Positions 1-36,479 of a stretch of DNA of 36,479 nucleotides are shown piece after piece (the first letter of the stretch is position 1; each line of letters begins with the position of its first letter). Source of the stretch: a virus; IMG/VR virus record IMGVR_UViG_3300031902_000552, positions 1 to 36,479 of that record; one strand, given 5' to 3'. Made by a program: the position numbers and the translations under genes. The notes beneath the pieces were generated by a model, which saw nothing but the letters and a program-made list of their open reading frames with translations, had not been told where the DNA came from and ran no database searches.

Positions 1-127
1 CCTATGATCGCAGTCAGATCACCAGCGCGTTCTTCGAAGCACGCACGGGCACGCCGGTGCGCGAGACGCTGGCCGAGCTGCTGCTGAGCTGGGATGTGAC
101 GGGCGATGATGGCAAGCCCTACCAGCC
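1..127. repeat. Terminal direct repeat, left copy (circular contig overlap)
   Basis: Bases 1-127 are identical, base for base, to 36353-36479. The reading frame of the chaperone gene begun at 36277 continues without interruption across the join. The length of exactly 127 is a common maximum k-mer of de Bruijn assemblers, so this is best read as the assembly overlap of a circular (or circularly permuted) molecule. It is not good evidence for a physical terminal repeat. Confidence 0.97.
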
Positions 128-6267: not shown

Positions 6268-6501
6268 CTCATCGCACGCAACGCGCCACGCGGCGTGGAG
6301 ATCGCGCAGCGGGCGGTCGTCGATTGCCTCCTGCACGATCAGCCAGGCCGCGAACGCTGGGGCGTAGTGAAACACGGCGGCGATAGCGTGCGCCTGGGCC
6401 GCACGCGGCTGATCGCGCAGCGTGAGCGCGTCGATAATGGTGCGCCATGGCATGGTGGCGGTGATCTGCACGGTTTGCCCGCTTTCTGCTGGAGGAGCCA
6501 T
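6253..6501 (-). CDS. Hypothetical 82-residue protein
   Basis: Read leftward from ATG 6501 (MAPPAESGQTVQITATMPWR), ending inside the 3' end of 6034-6267 with a 15-base overlap. Its composition is balanced and protein-like (FHYAPAFAAWLIVQEAIDDR), unlike the Arg/Ser-rich shadow frames. No ribosome-binding site is clear upstream of the ATG, and the same stretch carries the possible 5' end of the plus-strand gene ending at 6832. The open frame extends upstream to 6837, but that extension looks like shadow sequence. Real gene probability is about even. Confidence 0.45.
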   Translation of the reverse strand: MAPPAESGQTVQITATMPWRTIIDALTLRDQPRAAQAHAIAAVFHYAPAFAAWLIVQEAIDDRPLRDLHAAWRVACDESPLP

Positions 6502-6832
6502 CAAAGTATACCGCATCGCGCTGCTGCTGGCGCTGCTCATCACCGCCCCGCCGCCGCCATTCACCGCACGCTGGCAGGGATCGTCGGTTGCCCGGCTCGT
6601 GTGGCAACAGCCCGCCGACGTGGCCCTGACCTGCCTGTCGCGCAATGCGACGCTGATCCGCTGCTGGGCCGATCTGCCCGCCGGGCCGGTCGTGATCGCG
6701 CTGGGCAGCGTGGGGCCATTGGACGCCGCGTACCGCTCGCACGCGGGCGATGTGTTCGTGCTGGCGCTGGATGGACTGCGGGAGCGGGCGGCGCTGCGCG
6801 GGGTGGTACGGCTGGCGGTCGTCCGGCGGTGA
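6461..6832 (+). CDS. Small exported protein at end of the tail operon
   Basis: The convincing part begins near 6506 with a signal-peptide-like run VYRIALLLALLITAPPPP, followed by about 85 residues with two Cys (ALTCLSRNATLIRCWADLPA) that could form a disulfide. The stop TGA at 6830-6832 touches the terminator palindrome, as expected for the last gene of an operon. The start is uncertain. GTG 6461 is in frame, but the only strong ribosome-binding site, GGAGGAG at 6491-6497, precedes the non-standard codons ATC 6500 and GTA 6506. It may be a lysis accessory (outer-layer disruption) or an envelope protein; no family is recognised. Confidence 0.55.
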   Translation: MICTVCPLSAGGAIKVYRIALLLALLITAPPPPFTARWQGSSVARLVWQQPADVALTCLSRNATLIRCWADLPAGPVVIALGSVGPLDAAYRSHAGDVFVLALDGLRERAALRGVVRLAVVRR

Positions 6833-6887
6833 GGCACAAAAACGCCCGCCCCGATCAGCGCTGATCGGGGCGGGCGTTTTTGTGCCT
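6832..6887. terminator. Bidirectional terminator, 56-bp perfect palindrome
   Basis: Two 28-base arms meet with no spacer and pair perfectly: AGGCACAAAAACGCCCGCCC onward, mirrored to end GTTTTTGTGCCT. The GC core is flanked by an A5 run on the left and a T5 run on the right, so it terminates in both directions. It lies between the plus-strand gene ending at 6832 and the minus-strand gene ending at 6892. Confidence 0.93.
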
Positions 6888-6891
6888 GGAA

Positions 6892-7416
6892 TTAGGGGAT
6901 ACGCACCTGACAGCCGCACAGCAGATCGAGGATGACGGGCGTCGCAAGATCCTGGCGCTCGTGGCCGGGCCGATAGTGCGCGACGCTGCGCCCACGTGGA
7001 TCGACCACGAGCACATCGCGCACGCCACACGCGAGGTAGAACGGTGCGCCCTCGTCGCCGATGTCTTTTTCCTCATAGCCCAGGCTCAAAATCTCAATCA
7101 CCGCTGCCGGCAGCAGATCCAGCGCCGAATCCGTATCCGGCGGCTCCACACAGAAGATCGCGATGTCGGGCCGCTTGATGCTGGAATCGGGATCGGGGAA
7201 GCGAATGAACACATCTTGCAGGCTGTAGCAGGCGCAGCCGTCGGTGCGACCGGGGATCGGTCGGATCGATGCCTCAATCCGCTTGGCGGCCTTCTGGTGG
7301 CGGACGGCGGGGCTGGCTTCCCACTTGGTATGCCCGCGCACATATTCGAGCCGCACGGGCGCGCCGCTGGCGTCGGTGTGCAGCATCAATTCCAGCGGGT
7401 CGGTGGTGGTGGTCAT
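6892..7416 (-). CDS. Uma2-family (DUF820) PD-(D/E)XK endonuclease-like protein
   Basis: A 174-residue protein of the Uma2 family, a restriction-endonuclease-like fold whose cellular role is poorly known. Visible marks are RPDIAIF (Asp84), AAVIEILS (Glu108), a nearby Lys117 (YEEKDIG) and the VLVVDPRGRSVAHYR strand near 136-150. The middle is less canonical than in its neighbour: the usual 'SPSTRRRD-KL-LY' segment is altered to SLGYEEKDIGDEGAPFYLAC. It starts at ATG 7416 behind GGAGGAC and follows 7423-7998 by 6 bases, so the two are translated from one message. Paired divergent Uma2 copies suggest a dimer or two specificities, which is inference. Confidence 0.85.
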   Translation of the reverse strand: MTTTTDPLELMLHTDASGAPVRLEYVRGHTKWEASPAVRHQKAAKRIEASIRPIPGRTDGCACYSLQDVFIRFPDPDSSIKRPDIAIFCVEPPDTDSALDLLPAAVIEILSLGYEEKDIGDEGAPFYLACGVRDVLVVDPRGRSVAHYRPGHERQDLATPVILDLLCGCQVRIP

Positions 7417-7422
7417 ACTGAC

Positions 7423-7998
7423 TCAGTCCTCCGTTGTCGGCAGGCCCGCGAAGATCCGTGCCAGTGGCACCGCGAACCCCGGCAGCAGCGGCGACGTGAG
7501 CGTGTCGCCGTCGCGCAGCGCGAGCGCAAGCGTCAGCCCCGCCGCCGCTAATCGGTACACGTCGATGGATCGGCGCGGCCAGTCCACGATCCAATATTCG
7601 TCGCAGCCGGCGCGGCTGTACAGCTTCAGCTTGGTGTCGCGGTCACGGCGGGCGTTGGCACCGCCGGGGGAGAGCACCTCCACTACCAGCTCGGGCGCGG
7701 CGTAGAGCTTGCCGCCCGTGCCCAGGATGGCCGCGAGGCGCGCGGTGCTGGCCCAGACCACATCGGGCGCGACATCATCATCATCGGCGAGAATCAGGCC
7801 CGGCGCAATGGCGGCCATGCCACGGGTGTCGGGCAGCCCCCAGGCGTCGAGCAGGCCACTCAGCCGCCCACACACGACCTGGTGATGCCAGTTTGGTTGC
7901 TTCGACACGTACAGGTCTCCATCAATAATTTCGCGGCGCTTCCCATCGTCGGGGAAGGCCAACAGATCGGCGGATGTAAAGCGGGTTGCGGTGGTCAT
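7423..7998 (-). CDS. Uma2-family (DUF820) endonuclease
   Basis: A 191-residue Uma2 protein with the complete family signature: N-terminal FTSADLLAFPDDGKRREIID, APDVVWAS (Asp79), ELVVEVLSPGGANARRDRDT (Glu107, Lys123) and AGCDEYWIVDWPRRSIDVYR. The Asp-Glu-Lys set matches a PD-(D/E)XK metal-dependent nuclease site. Uma2 genes are greatly expanded in cyanobacteria and Chloroflexota, where they are mostly chromosomal; a tandem pair inside a phage genome is less usual. ATG 7998 overlaps the stop of the upstream HTH gene by 4 bases (ATGA). Confidence 0.93.
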   Translation of the reverse strand: MTTATRFTSADLLAFPDDGKRREIIDGDLYVSKQPNWHHQVVCGRLSGLLDAWGLPDTRGMAAIAPGLILADDDDVAPDVVWASTARLAAILGTGGKLYAAPELVVEVLSPGGANARRDRDTKLKLYSRAGCDEYWIVDWPRRSIDVYRLAAAGLTLALALRDGDTLTSPLLPGFAVPLARIFAGLPTTED

Positions 7999-8762: not shown

Positions 8763-8819
8763 GTGTCAGGTTGCTTTCCCTGACACGTTAAATATACCAC
8801 GTTTCACAGTATTTGTCAA
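8763..8819 (-). promoter_or_regulatory. Strong leftward promoter with start-site inverted repeat
   Basis: On the minus strand, TTGACA (8814-8819), a 17-base spacer and TATATT (8791-8796) give a near-consensus sigma-70 promoter. The predicted start near 8784 coincides with a perfect inverted repeat, GTGTCAGG and CCTGACAC (8763-8770 and 8779-8786), separated by 8 bases. The repeat may be an operator or the 5' hairpin of the message. It drives 8735 down to 6892. Confidence 0.85.
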
Positions 8820-8842
8820 GCACGGGTTTGGGGAGGGTGAAT

Positions 8843-8884
8843 CACCACGGCCCCGATCTGCATTGCCAGATCGGGGCCGTGGTG
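8843..8884. terminator. Strong hairpin between two leftward operons
   Basis: A perfect 18-bp stem (CACCACGGCCCCGATCTG with its complement) and a 6-base loop CATTGC. No T-run follows in the leftward direction. It lies after the last gene of the 8902-17750 block and just upstream of the promoter at 8791-8819, so it likely insulates the two. Confidence 0.75.
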
Positions 8885-8901
8885 CGTTGGCGGGTGGGGG
8901 C

Positions 8902-9204
8902 TTACGAGCGGCGTGCGCGCGTGCGTCGTTGCGCCTGCCGCAGATCTTCAATCGTTCCTTTCAGCTCCACCACCGAGTCAAGATAGCGATCCGCCACGCC
9001 GCGCCAGAAGCGCGCGCTGCGCTGCCAGCGCCGCCATTGCCACGCGAACAGCAGCGCCAGGATCCACGGCAGCACGGTCAGGCCGTAGCGCAGCGTCAGC
9101 GCCAACAGCGCGCCGCCCACGGCATGCCACTGCGCGGCGGTGAGGGTGCCGGCAGCCAGGGTGCCGCCGGCGATCAGGCCGAATAGGGCCACGAATCGCA
9201 TCAT
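8902..9204 (-). CDS. Two-helix membrane protein
   Basis: A 100-residue protein with two transmembrane segments (RFVALFGLIAGGTLAAGTLT and VLPWILALLFAWQWRRW), then a basic cytoplasmic tail with a short helix (SVVELKGTIEDLRQAQRRTR). ATG 9204 overlaps the stop of the upstream secreted-protein gene (ATGA). Holins have this size and topology, but a better-placed holin-like gene lies next to the endolysin at 26552, so I leave the function open. Confidence 0.7.
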   Translation of the reverse strand: MMRFVALFGLIAGGTLAAGTLTAAQWHAVGGALLALTLRYGLTVLPWILALLFAWQWRRWQRSARFWRGVADRYLDSVVELKGTIEDLRQAQRRTRARRS

Positions 9205-9581
9205 CGCAGCCCCGCAATCGGATGTGCGGCGCGATAGGCGGCGGCTTCTGCCTGCATCTGCGCCACACGTGCGGCCAACTCATTCGCCACCGCCAGGCCG
9301 TCGCCACTGCATGAGAACGCAGTCACGAATCCATACGGATAGCCAATCGGGTCACTGACGGTCGCGCTCAGTTTCGCCGATGCGATTTCGTAGCTACACG
9401 CCTGCATGGCCGGCGCGCTGGTTTGCACTGCCAGACGCAGCCGGTAGATCGTAGCGCGACGTGGCACGACGATGGTTTGCACGACTGGGCGCGCGATGGT
9501 TGCGCGCGGCAGCGGCGCGGGGAGTGGCGCGAACGAGGTCAGCGGCAGCGCCAAAAGCAAAACAATCACGAGCTTGATCAT
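9201..9581 (-). CDS. Secreted protein with signal peptide
   Basis: A 126-residue protein starting MIKLVIVLLLALPLTSFAPL, a standard Sec signal peptide. The mature part is beta-rich (RRATIYRLRLAVQTS) with two Cys (ACSYEIASAK and AFSCSGDGLA) and ends in a short helix with AQMQAEAAAYRAAHP. ATG 9581 follows AGGAG at 8 bases and overlaps the upstream stop by 4 bases. No family recognised. It would act at or outside the cell envelope. Confidence 0.7.
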   Translation of the reverse strand: MIKLVIVLLLALPLTSFAPLPAPLPRATIARPVVQTIVVPRRATIYRLRLAVQTSAPAMQACSYEIASAKLSATVSDPIGYPYGFVTAFSCSGDGLAVANELAARVAQMQAEAAAYRAAHPIAGLR

Positions 9582-10330
9582 CGATTCCACTCCTGTGGCG
9601 ACGGCGTGATCACTACACCCGCATTGCCGCCATATGTTTCAATCCATTTCGCCTTGGCCTGTTCCTGGAGCACGCTCAGATCCGCGTCGTCGCACACTTC
9701 GACCATCTTGCCAGGAATGCCCGTTTGAGCACACGGCGGCGGCGGAGGTGGCGGGGTGGCGACCATCGGCACCTCGGGAGGAATCGGCGGCGCGGTCGGT
9801 CGAACGGCCAGATCTGCGCCAACCATCCCCAGCTGCGGCCAATCAGCGGCGCGTAGCCAGATCACGCCGCTGCCGGCGACATCCGCCTGAATCCAATCGC
9901 TGCCAAAGTGCGCGAGCGGTGTAATCACGCGGGTGGCCTCGATCTGCCAGCGCGGCGCTTCGTTGGGAGCGCCGTAGGCTGGCAGCATGGCGACGCCGGG
10001 GGTTGGGCGTTGGGGGATGGGAGCCCTGGCCGCTGCGGCGGGCGCGGCGCTGGGCACGGTGGCGGCGCGCGGTGGCATGATCGGCTGCGGCACGGCCCCG
10101 AAGCGGATGGTCAGCCCGATCAGCACCAGCCCGATCAGCCCACCGCCGATCAGCGAGATCAGACTGCGCGGCATGGGCACGCGGGCTGCCGGCGCGGGCG
10201 CGGGCGCGGCGCGGCGCATCGGTGGCGGCGCGGCATCCTCCGGTGCCGGCGTGGCCTCCTCCAGCGGCGGCGACAGGCGGATGAATCCGCGGCTGTCGCG
10301 GTCGTCGTCGGTAAAGCGGATGGTTGCCAT
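9578..10330 (-). CDS. Membrane-anchored protein with SH3-like extracellular part
   Basis: A 250-residue protein. Residues 1-55 are cytoplasmic, acidic then Pro/Ala-rich; a transmembrane helix (LISLIGGGLIGLVLIGLTIR) follows near 57-77; the remainder is outside. Residues about 125-165 (RWQIEATRVITPLAHFGSDW, then IQADVAGSGVIWLRAADW) have the pattern of a bacterial SH3 domain, which often binds cell-wall peptides. A Pro-rich linker (ATPPPPPPPCA) leads to a C-terminal segment with two Cys. ATG 10330 directly follows the stop of the upstream gene (TAAATGG). Wall sensing or surface modification is plausible, not shown. Confidence 0.68.
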   Translation of the reverse strand: MATIRFTDDDRDSRGFIRLSPPLEEATPAPEDAAPPPMRRAAPAPAPAARVPMPRSLISLIGGGLIGLVLIGLTIRFGAVPQPIMPPRAATVPSAAPAAAARAPIPQRPTPGVAMLPAYGAPNEAPRWQIEATRVITPLAHFGSDWIQADVAGSGVIWLRAADWPQLGMVGADLAVRPTAPPIPPEVPMVATPPPPPPPCAQTGIPGKMVEVCDDADLSVLQEQAKAKWIETYGGNAGVVITPSPQEWNR

Positions 10331-11545
10331 TTAGTGCCTGCTTTCGGTTATGTCGAACGACCAGCGCCCAAGATTTACCTGGCGCGCGCTTCCGTCCGCA
10401 ATCCAGCTGTCGCGCAGCGCGCCAGCGCTGGTGTCACCGATCCGAAGTTCTGCCGCCAGCTGCTTCAGCGTCCATGGTCGTCGCCCGAACGCGTCACGTG
10501 CTGCACGGAGATACGCGGCGTCGTGCGCGGTCGTCTGGCGTCGGGTGGCGTCGGGTGCCTCACGTGATTCTGACGACTGCAATCGTGAATCCGCGTGCAG
10601 CCGGAGGTCGGCAGCGTCACGACGTACCTGATCGCCGTCCCCAACCGCGATGCGCATGCCGTCCGCAGCGGGCATGGTCATCGTGGTATACGTGGCGGGG
10701 AGCGTGTCTGCACGTGCGATCTGTGCCGGCAGCGTGACAGAACGATCCTCGCGCACATGCAGGGTCGAGCCGGTCAAGCTCTCGCTGATATAGCCCATCA
10801 CATCCTGGATATCCTGATTGTCATCAAGCTCGCTGAACGGCAGCGCCGCGCCGCTGAGGGTCTTCACACTCTGCCCCACCTCGCGCAGCGTCTTATCGAT
10901 GCCGCCCACAAGGCCGCGCATCACGCCGGCCAGTTCCTCGCGCTCAGCGACCGTCAAATTCGCAAAGCCGATCAGCGCCTTCTCTTGGGCACGGAGCAAG
11001 GTGGCGCGCAGGATCGCGATATCGGCCTGGGTTTGCAACTCGTAGCGCTTGACGATATGCGCCTGCTCCAGCTGGGCGGTGAGTTCCTCGCTGGAAACGG
11101 GTGCCCAGAGCAAGGCCGGAATGAGGATGAAGCCGATCAGGCCGATAAACACCTGCTGGTAGATCAGGCCGCTCTCGGCAGTCGCCGGCTGCGCAGCCCA
11201 CCAGGCGTATTGCAGCTGGAACGAGTAGTAGAGCAGATAAATCGACGCCCCCACCACGGCGATATGCCCCCAGGTCTGGGCGTTGACCCGCTGGAGCAGC
11301 ATGCCGGCGGGACTCCAGGGGATAAGGAAGCTGACCAGCGTCGGCGGGGCCAGCACCAGGATCGCCGTGAAGGCGATGGCGATTGGCTGGCTGGTGGTGA
11401 GCTGGGATTGGACGCCCCACCAATAGATCGCGCTGGCGATCATGCTGACGAGTGCGAGCAGCAGCAACACGCTTTTGGCCGTGATCTGCATCACGCCGTT
11501 GCGGCGCGTATTGCGGCGGATGTGGTCGAGATAGCGGCTGCTCAC
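10331..11545 (-). CDS. Polytopic membrane protein with C-terminal DNA-binding-like domain
   Basis: A 404-residue protein starting at GTG 11545, which overlaps the LuxR-type gene's stop (GTGA). Four transmembrane helices occupy about residues 20-155 (VLLLLALVSMIASAIYWWGV; IAIAFTAILVLAPPTLVSFL; GHIAVVGASIYLLYYSF; VFIGLIGFILIPALLW). A long helical region follows (residues 160-250), then an acidic linker. Near the end, AYLRAARDAFGRRPWTLKQL continuing to QVNLGRWSFDI looks like a small winged helix. This layout of membrane sensor plus cytosolic DNA-binding end suggests a one-component membrane regulator. Alternatively it may be a membrane anchor for the partition complex encoded just upstream. Confidence 0.62.
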   Translation of the reverse strand: MSSRYLDHIRRNTRRNGVMQITAKSVLLLLALVSMIASAIYWWGVQSQLTTSQPIAIAFTAILVLAPPTLVSFLIPWSPAGMLLQRVNAQTWGHIAVVGASIYLLYYSFQLQYAWWAAQPATAESGLIYQQVFIGLIGFILIPALLWAPVSSEELTAQLEQAHIVKRYELQTQADIAILRATLLRAQEKALIGFANLTVAEREELAGVMRGLVGGIDKTLREVGQSVKTLSGAALPFSELDDNQDIQDVMGYISESLTGSTLHVREDRSVTLPAQIARADTLPATYTTMTMPAADGMRIAVGDGDQVRRDAADLRLHADSRLQSSESREAPDATRRQTTAHDAAYLRAARDAFGRRPWTLKQLAAELRIGDTSAGALRDSWIADGSARQVNLGRWSFDITESRH

Positions 11546-11739
11546 GATCCCACCGCCTTCTCGCGCTGCCACGCCGCGATCAGACTGTCGCGGTCGTGCG
11601 CGCCCAGCTTGCGGTACAAGACGGCGATGGCGTCGGCGACGGCGATCACGCTGATGCCCAGCTTGTGCGCGATCATGCGGTTGGAGTGGCCGGCAGCGAA
11701 GAGATCGAGGATCTCGGTCTCGCGTGGGGTGAGGTTCAT
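11542..11739 (-). CDS. LuxR/GerE-type helix-turn-helix protein (single domain)
   Basis: A 65-residue protein that is almost only a GerE domain: LTPRETEILDLFAAGHSNRM (scaffold helices), then IAHKLGISVIAVADAIAVLY (recognition helix) and RKLGAHDRDSLIAAW. This is the DNA-binding end of NarL/LuxR response regulators without a receiver, so activity must be set by abundance or a partner. It is translationally coupled to the membrane protein at 10331-11545, an obvious candidate partner. The ribosome-binding site AAGGAG is 5 bases before ATG 11739. Confidence 0.88.
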   Translation of the reverse strand: MNLTPRETEILDLFAAGHSNRMIAHKLGISVIAVADAIAVLYRKLGAHDRDSLIAAWQREKAVGS

Positions 11740-11848
11740 GGTGACTCCTTTTGGATCGTACGCTACAATACGGCGGGGTGCGCTGCGGGTGACTCCCGGC
11801 GCGTGCGGCGTGGCTCTTTCACAGCCATGCCGCGCCCCATGGGATGAT

Positions 11849-12862
11849 CTAGGTCGCCGGGGGTGATCCTCCTTCCTCCAAGAGCGCGATCAGGGCATCG
11901 ATGTGATCGAGCGCCGTGTGATAGTCCGGTAGGCGGATCATGGTGTAGCTCGGCGCATGCACGAGTCGCGCGCGTTCCTGGGTTACGTAGGCGCGCGCGG
12001 CGGTGATTGCGATCTGTCGCTGGGCCTGCGCGGCCTGCCAGGTGGCGACCTGGACGCTGCCGCCCGCGCCGTTCGTGATCAGCGCCTGATCTGCGGCCTC
12101 GGCGGACTCGTAGGCGCGACGATCTGCGCCGGTCTCGCGCTCGGCTTTGGGCGTGCTGAGTATCCGCCGCTGGGCCTCGGCCAACGCCCGCTCCGGATAA
12201 TTGTAGTCGTGCGTTTTCCAGCCATCGGGCGCGATCAGGTGCGCCGGCGCGCCACGGCGATTCCATTGCCAGCCATCGGGCGCAGCGGGCCACGGCGCGG
12301 GCGGCGGCTGGCCGGGGCCGAGACGGGTGCCGCGCCGCTCGGGCGGTGGCGGGGCGTCGTCAAAATCCGCACCGGTGCGGATTTTGGTTACACGGATCGA
12401 TGACTCGATCTGGCGTTTCGTTGGCGGTTCTGGCGCGCTCAACGCCTGATCAACAAGCTCGGGCGGCGTGGACTCGCGCGCCAGCAGCGCCGCCGTTGAT
12501 TGTGTAAGCCAGTTGCGCGCAATCGCGTCGGCATACTGTGTATTCGCCATCGCCAGGCGGTGAATATTGAGCAGCCGCTCAGCGGTGTCGTCGCTGGTGC
12601 TGGTCGCCTCTAGAAAGATCTTCCACTCGCCGTGCTTCGCCAGCTCGTGTGCCTCGTTGAGCCAGCGGCACATATCCAACAGCGCCTCGCCGCTGCGCCG
12701 ACGTGCGCCGATGTAGTTGCGCGCAATCACTTGCAGCGGCTCGGGTAGCGCACCGGCCTGCGCGGGTAGCGCGGTGCCGTCCAGGTCGGCGCGCTGGCCG
12801 ACCGTGAAGCGCGTGCCGATCTTAAGCGTCGGCGCTTTGATACGATCAGTTAGTTTCCCCAT
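11849..12862 (-). CDS. DUF3102-like protein, candidate ParA partner (ParB substitute)
   Basis: A 337-residue protein overlapping the 3' end of parA by 13 bases. Residues about 45-125 (YIGARRRSGEALLDMCRWLN; HELAKHGEWKIFLEATSTSD; DTAERLLNIHRLAMANTQYA) match the pattern of DUF3102, helix-rich proteins often encoded beside ParA on phages and plasmids. A Pro-rich linker follows, then WQWNRRGAPAHLIAPDGWK and a C-terminal helical part. No classical ParB motif is visible, so it would be the DNA-binding adaptor of an atypical partition pair. The 109 bases after its stop (11740-11848) hold no recognised gene, and no clear terminator. Confidence 0.7.
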   Translation of the reverse strand: MGKLTDRIKAPTLKIGTRFTVGQRADLDGTALPAQAGALPEPLQVIARNYIGARRRSGEALLDMCRWLNEAHELAKHGEWKIFLEATSTSDDTAERLLNIHRLAMANTQYADAIARNWLTQSTAALLARESTPPELVDQALSAPEPPTKRQIESSIRVTKIRTGADFDDAPPPPERRGTRLGPGQPPPAPWPAAPDGWQWNRRGAPAHLIAPDGWKTHDYNYPERALAEAQRRILSTPKAERETGADRRAYESAEAADQALITNGAGGSVQVATWQAAQAQRQIAITAARAYVTQERARLVHAPSYTMIRLPDYHTALDHIDALIALLEEGGSPPAT

Positions 12863-13671
12863 CGGCTCCGCACTTCCTCGGCTAATGCTGCGTAGGCCGC
12901 TGCTCCTGCCGACGTCGGCGCGTAAGATGAGATCGGCTGCCCAGCGCTGGGCGCTTCGGCAAGGTAGGTGCTCAGCGGGATCTCGGTCGCGAACATCAGC
13001 GCGCCATACGCCGCCCGCGCTGCCTGGCCGATCTCGCGGCTGAGCGCCGTCCGTTTATCGACCATGGTGAGGACAATGCCGCCGATGTGCAGATCGGGGC
13101 TGATTGTCTGGATATCCTGGATCGTCTCGTTCAGCTTCTCCATCGCGTTCAAGGCCAGATACTGCGCTTGCAGCGGCACGATGATCGTGTCGGCTGCAAC
13201 GAGCGCGTTCGCCGTCATCAGGCCAATCGAGGGCGGGGAATCAATCAGGATGTAGTCGTACTGCTGCCGTGCGCAGCGTAGGCCGTTCTTCAGCAGCTGC
13301 TCGCGCCCGTACTTATTGGAGAGTCGCTCCTGCGCGCCGTCCAGGCGCCGGCTGGCCGGCAGTAGATCGACGCCGAACGCGGTGGTGATGATCGGCAGCT
13401 GCGTTGCCAGCGCTGGGTTTAAGAGCACTTCATAGATCATCGGATCATCGTCGCTGATTGCCACGCCCAGCGCGGTCGTCAGGTCGGACTGGTAGTCGGT
13501 GTCGATGCACAGCACGCGGGATCCGTGGCGTGCTAGCTCGACGGCCAGCGATGCGGTGGTGGTGGTCTTGCCGACGCCGCCTTTGGGTAAGACGAGCGCG
13601 ATGGTCTGGGCCGTGCGGTGCGCGGGTCGCACGCGGTACAGGGTTTCGGTTGGTTGTGTGTAGGCGATCAT
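12850..13671 (-). CDS. parA: ParA-family partition ATPase
   Basis: A 273-residue ParA/Soj-type ATPase that moves DNA cargo over the nucleoid. It has the deviant Walker A KGGVGKTT (residues 30-37, with both signature lysines), CIDTDYQSDLT for motif A', DYILIDSPPSIGLMTANALV for Walker B, and VPLQAQYLALNAMEKL. No N-terminal HTH is present, as in small plasmid (type Ib) and chromosomal ParA. The start is ATG 13671 behind GAGGAG. Five 8-bp repeats lie 20 bases upstream of the start. Its presence in a phage genome suggests maintenance as an extrachromosomal prophage. Confidence 0.95.
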   Translation of the reverse strand: MIAYTQPTETLYRVRPAHRTAQTIALVLPKGGVGKTTTTASLAVELARHGSRVLCIDTDYQSDLTTALGVAISDDDPMIYEVLLNPALATQLPIITTAFGVDLLPASRRLDGAQERLSNKYGREQLLKNGLRCARQQYDYILIDSPPSIGLMTANALVAADTIIVPLQAQYLALNAMEKLNETIQDIQTISPDLHIGGIVLTMVDKRTALSREIGQAARAAYGALMFATEIPLSTYLAEAPSAGQPISSYAPTSAGAAAYAALAEEVRSRWGN

Positions 13672-18171: not shown

Positions 18172-19089
18172 GTGGCTGTCATCGCATTCCCGCGCCCCGT
18201 ATCGCGCACGCGTGCGCAAACAATGCGCACGCACATTCCGTCATGGCGAACCGCGCGGCTCGCTGACGGACGGCGACCCCGTGGCGTCGCCTCGTATGTT
18301 GCCAAGCTGGAACAGTTTCTGGAGTGGTCCGGCGAGATCACGCCGAACGATCTCACGGCTGACCTGATCGCGCGCTACAAGATCGCGCTGCATGAGCGCA
18401 ATCTGGCGATGGGAACCGTGCGCCATTGCCTGACCGTGCTGCGCGCATTTTGCGACTGGGGTGTCGCGCAGGGGCTGCTCGATAGTAATCCCGCGCTCGC
18501 GGTCGGCCATCCGCACGTGGAAGAGTCCGATCCTGATCCGCTCACGCGGGCGAAAATCGATGCCTTGCTGGCCGCGATTGACGAGCCGCCACAGTCACAC
18601 AAGCTGACCTGGCGGCGCAACCGGCGGGCGGTCATGCTCGGCCTGTATTGCGGTCTCCGAATCGCGGAGATCGCCGAGCTGAAATGGGGCGATGTCGATC
18701 TGGCGCGGGGCGAGATTATCGTCCGGAAAAAGGGCGGCAAGGGCGGCAAGAGCCGCGTGGTGCCGATCTGTGATGAATTGCTGGCGGAGCTGCGCCTGGC
18801 CAAGCACCAGCGGGTGGGCGATGCGGTGGTGGATCAGGGCGACGGGACGGCGCTGAGCGTCAAATCGCTCGGCCACATTTACGAGCGCTGGTTACGGCGG
18901 CGCGGGATCGTGTTGCATTCCCACCAGCTCCGCAAGACCTTCGCAACGGAGCTGTATATCGCTGGCGAGGATCTGGCGACGATTCAGCGGCTGCTCGGGC
19001 ATCGTGATCCGAAGACCACCATGCGCTATTTGGGGGCCAGCGCCCCCAAGGAACGGGCGGCGGTGCAGAAATTAAAATTCCGTAAGTAG
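18172..19089 (+). CDS. int: Tyrosine recombinase 1 (integrase / Xer-like)
   Basis: A 305-residue tyrosine recombinase with an N-terminal core-binding domain (YVAKLEQFLEWSGEITPNDL) and a complete catalytic set: Arg162 (YCGLRIAEIAEL), Lys in the KGGKGGKSR beta-hairpin, His251-x-x-Arg254 (HQLRKTF), His277 (LLGHRDPKTT) and nucleophile Tyr286 (MRYLG). Length and spacing fit XerC/D-like enzymes, so it may integrate the prophage or resolve dimers of a circular form. GTG 18172 stands 6 bases after AGGAGG. Between the terminator at 18014 and this gene, 18093-18114 contains GCATTGC and GCAATGC in inverted order, a possible arm or core site. Confidence 0.95.
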   Translation: MAVIAFPRPVSRTRAQTMRTHIPSWRTARLADGRRPRGVASYVAKLEQFLEWSGEITPNDLTADLIARYKIALHERNLAMGTVRHCLTVLRAFCDWGVAQGLLDSNPALAVGHPHVEESDPDPLTRAKIDALLAAIDEPPQSHKLTWRRNRRAVMLGLYCGLRIAEIAELKWGDVDLARGEIIVRKKGGKGGKSRVVPICDELLAELRLAKHQRVGDAVVDQGDGTALSVKSLGHIYERWLRRRGIVLHSHQLRKTFATELYIAGEDLATIQRLLGHRDPKTTMRYLGASAPKERAAVQKLKFRK

Positions 19090-20594: not shown

Positions 20595-20707
20595 ACTCTA
20601 CCATCAAATATTGCTGTTGTCAACCAGCATATTCATGCTTGACAGCGGCAATATCAGTGCTATAATGTAGCTACAGAACAACAATACGTTGTTTCATAGC
20701 TACAACG
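20595..20707. promoter_or_regulatory. Divergent promoters and symmetric operator (immunity region)
   Basis: Rightward: TTGACA (20639-20644), 16 bases, TATAAT (20661-20666), both hexamers perfect. Leftward: TTGACA (complement of 20618-20623), 17 bases, TAGAGT (complement of 20595-20600). A dyad of two 15-base arms (20609-20623 and 20639-20653, 13 of 15 paired) places each arm over one -35 box, so one bound repressor complex can shut both. The rightward leader holds GTAGCTA (20667-20673) and TAGCTAC (20697-20703), which can form a start-site hairpin. Confidence 0.9.
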
Positions 20708-23943: not shown

Positions 23944-24000
23944 CAGTATTAGCCAGCAGCGAATATGCGCGGCGATCCTCAATGGATCGCCGCGTTTTTT
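23944..24000 (+). promoter_or_regulatory. Leader of integrase 2 with promoter-proximal terminator
   Basis: A weak -10-like CAGTAT (23944-23949) precedes CAGCAGCGAATATGCG and a perfect 11-bp stem, CGCGGCGATCC (23968-23978) with GGATCGCCGCG (23984-23994), then TTTTTT. Only 14 bases follow before ATG 24015, including its GGAG. A complete intrinsic terminator in front of the gene implies attenuation or termination of upstream read-through. Confidence 0.75.
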
Positions 24001-24014
24001 ATTGGAGCACATCG

Positions 24015-24980
24015 ATGTCCACCGCCTTGACCATCATCCAGCCCGCCGCCCTTGCCCAGATCGACCACGCCGGCGCGGCCGCGAACCGCGCAGCGGCCGG
24101 CCACGTCTTCAGCGCCTACGCCCAGCGCCGCCCGGTCAACACGCTGCGCCGGCAGAAGGCCGACCTCGATTGCTTTGTACACTTTCTCTGTACATGCGGC
24201 ATCGATGTACAGGAAAATCTTACATCCGATCCGGCGGCCTGGGCCGGTATCACCTGGGGACTCGTCGCGGCGTTCGTGCAGTGGGAGCTGAAGGCGGGCT
24301 ACGCGATTGGCAGCATCAACGTGCGGCTCTCGACGATTAAGACCTACGCGAAGTTGGCCACGCAGGCCGGCGCGCTCAGTCCGACCGAGTACGCGATGAT
24401 CCGCACGGTGGCCGGCTTTCGCTTCGGCGAGGGCCGCAACGTCGATGCCCAGCGCGCGCAGACGCGGCTCGGGGCGAAGAAGGAACATACCACCCCGATC
24501 GGGGCTGGCCAGGCGCTGGCGCTGAAAGACCAGGCCGATTCCCGTGACCAATTGCTCATGTGCATCCTGCTCGATCATGGGCTGCGCTGCGGTGAGGTGG
24601 CCGCGCTGGATGTGGCGAGCATCGACCTGGTGGCCGGCACGCTGACCTTCTACCGTGAGAAAGTGCATAAAACGCAGACGCACCGTCTGAGCAGCGACAC
24701 GCTGCGGGCGGCGATGAAGTACCTGGCTCAGCCGCGATCCGGGTCGCTCTTGGGGATGTCCACCCGCGAGATTAATCGCACAGTCGGCGAGCTGGGCGCT
24801 TGCCTGGGCATCGAACGGCTGAGTCCGCACGATATGCGCCATTTCTGGGCAACCGCTGCCGTGCGCGGCAAGACCGACATCAAGAGCTTGCAGGATGCCG
24901 GCGGATGGAGTTCGCCGGCGATGCCGCTGCGCTACGTCGAGTCAGCCGCGATTGCGAATGATGGTGTGCGGCTGGGCTAG
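24015..24980 (+). CDS. Tyrosine recombinase 2
   Basis: A 321-residue tyrosine recombinase. N-terminal core-binding domain: FSAYAQRRPVNTLRRQKADL to AGYAIGSINVRLSTIKTYAK. Catalytic residues: Arg191 (DHGLRCGEVAALD), Lys in REKVHKTQTHRL, His272-x-x-Arg275 (HDMRHFWA), Trp298 in place of the second His (AGGWSS), Tyr307 (LRYVES). The His-to-Trp change is found in active integrases. It is not a close copy of integrase 1. Start ATG 24015 has GGAG at 7 bases; the frame open to 23982 runs through the leader hairpin. Its terminator-controlled leader suggests regulated expression, possibly an excision or inversion function. Confidence 0.93.
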   Translation: MSTALTIIQPAALAQIDHAGAAANRAAAGHVFSAYAQRRPVNTLRRQKADLDCFVHFLCTCGIDVQENLTSDPAAWAGITWGLVAAFVQWELKAGYAIGSINVRLSTIKTYAKLATQAGALSPTEYAMIRTVAGFRFGEGRNVDAQRAQTRLGAKKEHTTPIGAGQALALKDQADSRDQLLMCILLDHGLRCGEVAALDVASIDLVAGTLTFYREKVHKTQTHRLSSDTLRAAMKYLAQPRSGSLLGMSTREINRTVGELGACLGIERLSPHDMRHFWATAAVRGKTDIKSLQDAGGWSSPAMPLRYVESAAIANDGVRLG

Positions 24981-36276: not shown

Positions 36277-36479
36277 ATGAAACTCTCGAAACTCACCGCG
36301 TCGCGCCCGACTCAGGCCACGCTGGAGGTGCTTGGCGAGCCGATGGTTGCCACCTATGATCGCAGTCAGATCACCAGCGCGTTCTTCGAAGCACGCACGG
36401 GCACGCCGGTGCGCGAGACGCTGGCCGAGCTGCTGCTGAGCTGGGATGTGACGGGCGATGATGGCAAGCCCTACCAGCC
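36277..36479 (+). CDS. Tail assembly chaperone, 5' part (continues at position 1)
   Basis: ATG 36277 follows AGGAG (36268-36272) and opens MKLSKLTASRPTQATLEVLG, with AFFEARTGTPVRETLAELLL further on. The window ends in mid-gene; the final 127 bases repeat 1-127, and the gene goes on to the stop at 275 or, after the -1 frameshift, to 466. Confidence 0.85.
   Translation, partial: MKLSKLTASRPTQATLEVLGEPMVATYDRSQITSAFFEARTGTPVRETLAELLLSWDVTGDDGKPYQ
36353..36479. repeat. Terminal direct repeat, right copy
   Basis: Identical to bases 1-127. Removing one copy gives a circle of 36,352 bp. Confidence 0.97.

Follow-up and report, generated by a model that had tools for sequence, protein, structure and literature searches.

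Why should a virus carry a run of genes that looks like a sensor spanning the envelope of its host? The question is posed by the IMG/VR virus record IMGVR_UViG_3300031902_000552, whose 36,479 bases are referred to here as the window. An earlier note, made from the sequence alone, had described five overlapping genes at positions 8902-11739 as an envelope-spanning sensor with a transcriptional output, built from pieces not usually found in phages, that might read the state of the host envelope, other phages or quorum signals in order to choose between lysis and lysogeny, or might block superinfection. The genes are arranged as described: the cluster consists of five minus-strand open reading frames (ORFs), neighbours overlap by 4 nucleotides (nt) or abut, and a hairpin stands at the end. 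The junctions read, in order, GTGA, TAAATG, ATGA and ATGA, as expected of translationally coupled genes. The products and their parts are as follows.

11542-11739, minus strand: lone GerE/LuxR-type helix-turn-helix (HTH) protein of 65 amino acids (aa); PF00196, E 8.4e-13, 48.2 bits against a gathering cut-off of 23.5.
10331-11545, minus strand: membrane-winged-helix fusion protein, 404 aa from the GTG at 11545 (the ORF opens at 11572, giving 413 aa).
10769-11545, minus strand: host-type membrane part of the fusion protein (ORF residues ~10-268), with four predicted helices and a helical region in the cytoplasm; Chloroflexales chromosomal proteins share 60-70% identity with it.
10331-10546, minus strand: C-terminal winged helix of the fusion protein, predicted by AlphaFold on the isolated domain with structural neighbours that are winged helices.
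9578-10330, minus strand: bitopic partner of 250 aa, with a cytoplasmic tail carrying a DxxG motif, one membrane helix, a Pro-rich linker, an SH3-like stretch and a Cys pair.
9201-9581, minus strand: secreted protein with two Cys, 126 aa (129 aa from 9590), signal-like N-terminus; 62% identity to L095:9859-10188, which lies in the same order.
8902-9204, minus strand: two-helix membrane protein with a coiled tail, 100 aa; two hydrophobic stretches by hydropathy.

The answer begins with the second and third genes. We scanned 8,019 ORFs, from 97 loci with known duplicates removed, with three profiles: one for the membrane family, one for the winged helix (A7) and one for the bitopic protein (A8). 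A winged helix stands behind the membrane family in ten loci: five phage records (the window, L035, L042, L094 and L095), three related genomes (L060, L061 and L089), L066, and L088, in which the contig end cuts the membrane gene and leaves the winged-helix end only. Since L060, L061 and L089 are one lineage, the ten loci represent eight lineages, five of them phage records and three chromosomal. The bitopic profile, built without L094 and L095, matches exactly ten ORFs, each directly downstream of a fusion gene (10/10), while no bitopic homologue lies beside a membrane gene lacking the winged helix (0/67 loci; the 77 membrane-gene loci are not fully dereplicated, 48 distinct membrane sequences having gone into the tree described below). 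Each of the ten bitopic proteins has a single membrane helix and carries a Cys pair close to its C-terminal end (two pairs in L094); in its N-terminal tail each also has a short motif of DxxG type, which in L095 was seen by eye. In the window protein, which is 47% identical to its L095 homologue, the pair is Cys 200 and Cys 213, and we infer that it lies outside the membrane. The membrane-winged-helix protein and its bitopic partner are a real conserved module. Because homologues of the membrane gene and of 9578-10330 are adjacent in other records, and three of the five genes are ordered alike in L095, the grouping of the genes is confirmed to exceed chance. Co-occurrence elsewhere is partial: each of the ten fusion loci keeps two of the five genes together and L095 keeps three; the GerE gene has no counterpart in the other nine module loci, and none was recognised for the two-helix gene.

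The membrane anchor that the earlier note gave the bitopic protein stands, and its SH3-like character holds for the family only: the window protein has no Pfam match, and SH3_3 is matched by three of the eight relatives scanned, the best at E 0.0038 with 17.8 bits, below the cut-off of 27. Descent of this protein from the chromosomal lipoprotein encoded near host copies of the membrane gene was rejected (hhalign probability 0.5%). Phage records searched directly with the bitopic and secreted Cys proteins gave no match, and a search of viral contigs for loci related to the bitopic protein or to the DUF3102-like protein encoded upstream of the cluster confirmed none.

Genomes other than those of phages also carry the pair. 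In L066 it is followed by a gene that looks like a large serine recombinase (by eye, as for other names so marked, meaning from reading the protein sequence), with a DruM2-like methylase near, and in L088 a DruE-like helicase follows the module; the neighbours in L060 and L061 look like STAND-type genes, and L061 also has CRISPR-like repeats (by eye). Occurring also in chromosomal islands away from phage genes, the pair therefore has no need of phage replication. The contig of L066 carries in addition a nucleotidyltransferase-like gene with a membrane gene (L111:2580-4435), by eye a CBASS-type pair.

What does the fusion add to the membrane protein? It adds a C-terminal tail of ~70 residues that the usual chromosomal copies lack. 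AlphaFold, run on the eight-row alignment A7, predicts three helices and a two-strand wing (helix-helix-helix-strand-strand) with a predicted local distance difference test score (pLDDT) of 82.2 and a predicted template modelling score of 0.66. Foldseek returned no match below E 0.001 for this model; the best rows were RbkR (8.1e-3), MarR-type regulators and IdeR. In VIA-align, where rows no more than 1 apart in Z count as tied, the model aligned with SelB (Z 9.9, root mean square deviation 2.0, 66 aligned), TtgV (Z 9.4, 2.4, 67 aligned) and HmgR (Z 9.3, 1.8, 66 aligned). A search of PDB sequences with the winged-helix profile found nothing above chance. The tail is, on this model, a winged helix, the DNA-binding type of fold that had been anticipated for the C-terminal part of 10331-11545, and the model makes DNA binding likely. 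The predicted isoelectric point exceeds 8.5 in seven of the eight winged-helix domains; that of the window domain is 11.1 and that of the L035 domain 6.8. A protein of another kind (L087:6893-7954, 353 aa) also matches the winged-helix profile (E 1.4e-5) and was excluded from the ten module loci; its contig has a coupling-protein-like ATPase gene as well (by eye).

The remainder of the fusion protein comes from the side of the host, the window being a phage of green non-sulfur bacteria (Chloroflexales). Its true start is probably the GTG at 11545: relatives begin at the residue encoded there, and the GTGA overlaps the GerE stop. Profile A2 found relatives of 10331-11572 encoded at 30 loci in GTDB genomes, and those named by group all belong to Chloroflexota or taxa within it. 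Most of the 30 share one chromosomal order of a lipoprotein, the membrane protein, a protein of ~80 aa, a NadD-like gene (by eye) and an HD-like protein; L009 and L010 are a second chromosomal copy, with a two-helix protein and then an Fpg-like gene (by eye) after the membrane gene. The family is present in 69 of the 158 genomes of the Herpetosiphon class (the class of G001). Profile A4 has matches in 40 of 400 genomes drawn from the phylum, 39 of them already in the class search, and the other, G374, matched in the winged-helix part only. In Herpetosiphon aurantiacus DSM 785 (L025), for example, the core protein is homologous over ORF residues 10-272 at 61% identity; unlike the window protein, the chromosomal protein beside the lipoprotein and nadD-like genes lacks the winged helix and the bitopic partner and has other neighbours. 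The idea of pieces foreign to phages thus fails for the membrane core, a conserved Chloroflexales host protein that also occurs without the winged helix in phage records or prophage-like regions (L002, L003, L013, L024, L036, L041, L043 and L064), several of which have replication or FtsK-like genes nearby. On a tree of the 48 distinct membrane sequences, in which we labelled 17 rows mobile from their context, the mobile rows need nine changes, at least four of them forced by well-supported branches; mobile elements therefore acquired the gene more than once. The window row falls on the Roseiflexaceae side on a long branch, in no well-supported set.

Four membrane helices had been assigned to this protein. 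Hydropathy finds three hydrophobic stretches (35-53, 66-84 and 141-159), and the fourth helix (101-127) comes from the full-length AlphaFold model, a low-confidence one (mean pLDDT 61) with helices at 32-58, 62-83, 101-127, 137-156, 161-203 and 208-239. Foldseek gave no match for this poor model, a PDB sequence search with the membrane-family profile found nothing above chance, and annotated phage and plasmid records searched directly with the membrane protein gave no match.

Several other neighbours of the membrane gene were observed. In L013:8010-12566, L043:9971-12450 and L002:2746-5251, a membrane gene without the winged helix is followed by a gene for a membrane P-loop ATPase with at most weak FtsK/TrwB matches, and in L002 and L013 a two-helix gene lies between the two. 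The membrane gene directly follows an M23 peptidase gene in L043:8751-10019 (PF01551, 6.8e-20) and L036:7314-7865 (by eye), and an IscB-like gene (by eye) is close to a divergent membrane-protein gene in L062:2059-3348.

The remaining cluster genes are companions of the pair to different degrees. The signal-like N-terminus and two Cys of the secreted protein, and the two hydrophobic stretches of the two-helix protein, agree with what had been noted of them. Besides its counterpart in L095, the secreted protein has a weak relative in L035 (39% over 41 aa, E 1.7e-4); no relative of the two-helix gene was recognised in the module loci. In L095 (IMGVR_UViG_3300012204_000014, 36,908 bp), the fusion, bitopic and secreted Cys genes are followed by a 4TM-coil-HTH gene in the place of the two-helix gene, and in both records tail-side genes stand on the opposite strand after the module, the window ORF 6422-6832 being matched at 37% identity in L095. 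A 4TM-coil-HTH gene is likewise found next to the module in L035, L042, L094 and L088, so that a further membrane HTH gene lies beside the pair in five of the eight lineages. A second HTH protein adjoins the module in all five phage records: GerE in the window and 4TM-coil-HTH in L035, L042, L094 and L095. A PDB sequence search with one 4TM-coil-HTH protein found nothing above chance, and its relationship to the membrane family is unsupported (hhalign probability 0.5%). The lone GerE domain itself is clear from its PF00196 score. A LuxR-type quorum-sensing receptor was rejected: the match spans residues 1-54 of 65, with no other domain and no trace of one that binds autoinducer.

Does the module belong to a known system? 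Pfam, PHROGs, NCBIfam and PADLOC have no family above cut-off for the membrane or bitopic proteins; in particular, PADLOC models, with which two of the five cluster proteins were scanned, give no match at E 0.01 for 10331-11545 or 9578-10330. ToxR/ToxS and CadC of E. coli resemble the module by analogy, in the membrane-anchored DNA binding predicted for it and, for ToxR, the nearest working analogue, in a co-activator from an adjacent gene. According to PMC7496328, ToxR of Vibrio cholerae has a co-activator and two Cys in its periplasmic domain, with the DNA-binding and outside domains on a single chain with one membrane helix. The module differs in placing its winged helix at the C-terminus, after three to four hydrophobic helices (four as predicted), and in having its outside domain encoded by a separate ORF; there is no sequence match, and membership of ToxR/CadC was rejected. 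An adjacent partner with a Cys pair is a trait held in common, with the bitopic gene in 10/10 loci and the Cys pair, presumed outside, in 10/10.

Two membrane proteins of mobile elements offer another comparison. SpdB proteins are linked to DUF2637, and p16.7 of phage phi29 has one helix and a homeodomain-like fold. Neither 10331-11572 nor the 4TM-coil-HTH proteins of L040 (= L035), L042, L088, L094 and L095 match DUF2637, and SpdB/DUF2637 membership was rejected; p16.7 differs in architecture from the fusion protein, with its four predicted helices and winged helix. According to PMC4974454, p16.7 is a membrane protein of the phage for which a role in bringing viral DNA to the membrane has been proposed. 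SpdB2 of the Streptomyces plasmid pSVH1 is, according to PMC4170104, an integral membrane protein that binds double-stranded DNA and interacts with TraB; like the module it is a membrane protein on a mobile element, and it is linked to an FtsK-like DNA pump. It has no outside partner of the module kind and is of a different family, and in our loci FtsK-like genes are near membrane-protein genes only where the winged helix is lacking. Membrane-anchored DNA-binding proteins are thus an established kind, but no description of the present family and its obligatory partner, or of the module, turned up in the open-licence PubMed Central literature, as far as searched.

Starting from gene order, homology, conservation of the module and the predicted fold, we lean tentatively, and at rather less than an even chance, towards a transmembrane DNA-binding pair that would signal in the manner of ToxR/ToxS without being a member of that family. 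The strict pairing of the winged helix with an outward Cys-pair partner fits a transmembrane regulator. Also in favour are the basic isoelectric points of seven of the eight winged-helix domains, the Cys pair and cytoplasmic motif of the partners, the occurrence of the pair in chromosomal islands and the second HTH protein beside it in all five phage records. In such a scheme, a host-type four-helix membrane protein would have gained a flexible linker and a winged helix at its cytoplasmic end, and the bitopic partner would span the membrane once, with its SH3-like/Cys-pair domain outside and its short cytoplasmic DxxG tail probably in contact with the fusion protein. The outside domain would read a wall or redox cue and alter DNA binding by the winged helix, presumably at target genes, the input and output of a ToxR/ToxS-like regulator being split over two chains. 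The secreted Cys protein might modulate the outside part of the partner, and the GerE protein could add local control. Of the sensor in the earlier note, the envelope-spanning membrane complex and the probable DNA-binding end find support in the conserved pair and the predicted winged helix. If signalling is true, phages would possess a transmembrane regulator of the one-component type whose sensor sits on a separate chain. Several observations weigh against it. Winged helices can also act in dimerisation or RNA binding, and the nearest folds include proteins of these kinds; several O-methyltransferases, whose winged helix is a dimerisation domain, are among the best Foldseek rows. The SH3-like part is missing from L035 and L066 and its Pfam support is weak, a GerE counterpart is absent from the other nine module loci, and palindromes exist upstream of the modules but a common operator motif was not found. 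Finally, the operon also has ParA and replication genes, a better fit to the tether considered below. These genes belong to a minus-strand run that descends from ~17750 through MarR-like, DnaC/IstB-like, ParA and DUF3102-like genes to the five-gene cluster.

12850-13671, minus strand: ParA-type ATPase (PF13614 3.8e-46, phrog_164 5.2e-63), upstream of the cluster in the same direction.
11849-12862, minus strand: DUF3102-like gene (PF11300 E 6.3e-5, just under the gathering score), upstream of the cluster in the same direction; L042 and L024 likewise have DUF3102 genes upstream.

A possible though doubtful alternative is that the module tethers element DNA to the membrane, the winged helix, joined by the second membrane HTH protein in loci that have one, aiding replication, partition or stability as SpdB2 or p16.7 might, and the outside partner anchoring the complex to the wall. 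ParA, DUF3102-like and DnaC/IstB-like genes share the same-direction operon, and DnaC-like, DnaA_C, DnaB or actin-like genes are near relatives in L042, L013, L024, L064 and L043. An FtsK-family gene lies 2.7 kb from the membrane gene in L024, weak FtsK matches adjoin it in L043 and L013, and SpdB2, according to PMC4170104, gives a plasmid precedent for a membrane protein that binds double-stranded DNA and interacts with TraB. Against this, the winged helix comes with an outside partner that a plain tether could do without, the pair is kept in chromosomal islands near which replication genes were not seen, and early phage genes adjoin replication genes anyway. If tethering is true, Chloroflexales elements would have a counterpart of the Streptomyces Spd machinery. 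We consider it unlikely that the module acts in superinfection exclusion or against other phages, its host-like membrane protein and exposed partners keeping competitors from entering the cell or responding to them: a simple exclusion protein needs no winged helix and the module proteins scanned have no PADLOC match, even though a host protein was repeatedly acquired by mobile elements, DruE-like and DruM2-like genes are neighbours of the pair in chromosomes, and the module ends the early operon, a usual place for accessory genes, facing the tail genes in the window and L095. Quite improbable, in our judgement, is a mobile-element switch in which Chloroflexales phages and defence islands would have copied a core host membrane protein, equipped it with a tail that binds DNA and a Cys-pair partner facing the wall, and would sense envelope damage or a competing phage to turn on protective or exit genes. 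We give very little credence to the core mimicking or replacing the host protein for the benefit of the phage, with the winged helix merely for dimerisation or protein contact. The core is indeed highly conserved in Chloroflexales without the winged helix, and dimerisation is a known role of this fold; the strict pairing with an outside partner and the basic isoelectric point of seven of the eight domains speak against it. Whether the pair signals or tethers, it offers a handle on an uncharacterised Chloroflexales core membrane protein that mobile elements have acquired several times.

The cluster is bordered by candidate regulatory signals.

8843-8884, minus strand: terminator-like, GC-rich hairpin with an 18 bp stem after the last cluster gene (fold of 8780-8901: -49.2 kcal/mol, z -5.2).
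8791-8819, minus strand: near-consensus promoter of the next unit, TTGACA-17-TATATT; the window has two sites of this kind, against 0.01 expected by chance.
11751-11768, no strand assigned: palindrome, a possible operator, just upstream of the GerE start; the sole exact copy in the window.

The hairpin is absent from a scan for consensus terminators because it has no T run. With three mismatches allowed, the palindrome is found twice in the window against 0.74 expected, which is weak evidence. The other near-consensus sigma-70 promoter lies at 20639-20666.

As to the genome, a 127-nt direct repeat stands at both ends of the window (1-127 and 36353-36479), which is therefore probably a phage genome in full, either circular or terminally redundant, with terminase, portal, major head and sheath-like genes on the plus strand. 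Relatives of the terminase are present in 15 of the 158 genomes of the Herpetosiphon class (best G064, 61% identity), and in one family 2 of 26 genomes have a relative of the head protein. Two tyrosine-recombinase genes (18172-19089 and 23982-24980) are found together with ParA, which makes a phage-plasmid lifestyle possible. A perfect 28-nt inverted repeat with zero spacer (6832-6887) lies between convergent gene runs and is probably a bidirectional terminator, and next to it are two side-by-side genes for Uma2-family putative endonucleases (6892-7998), one of which (7423-7998) matches the PADLOC candidate model PDC-S03.

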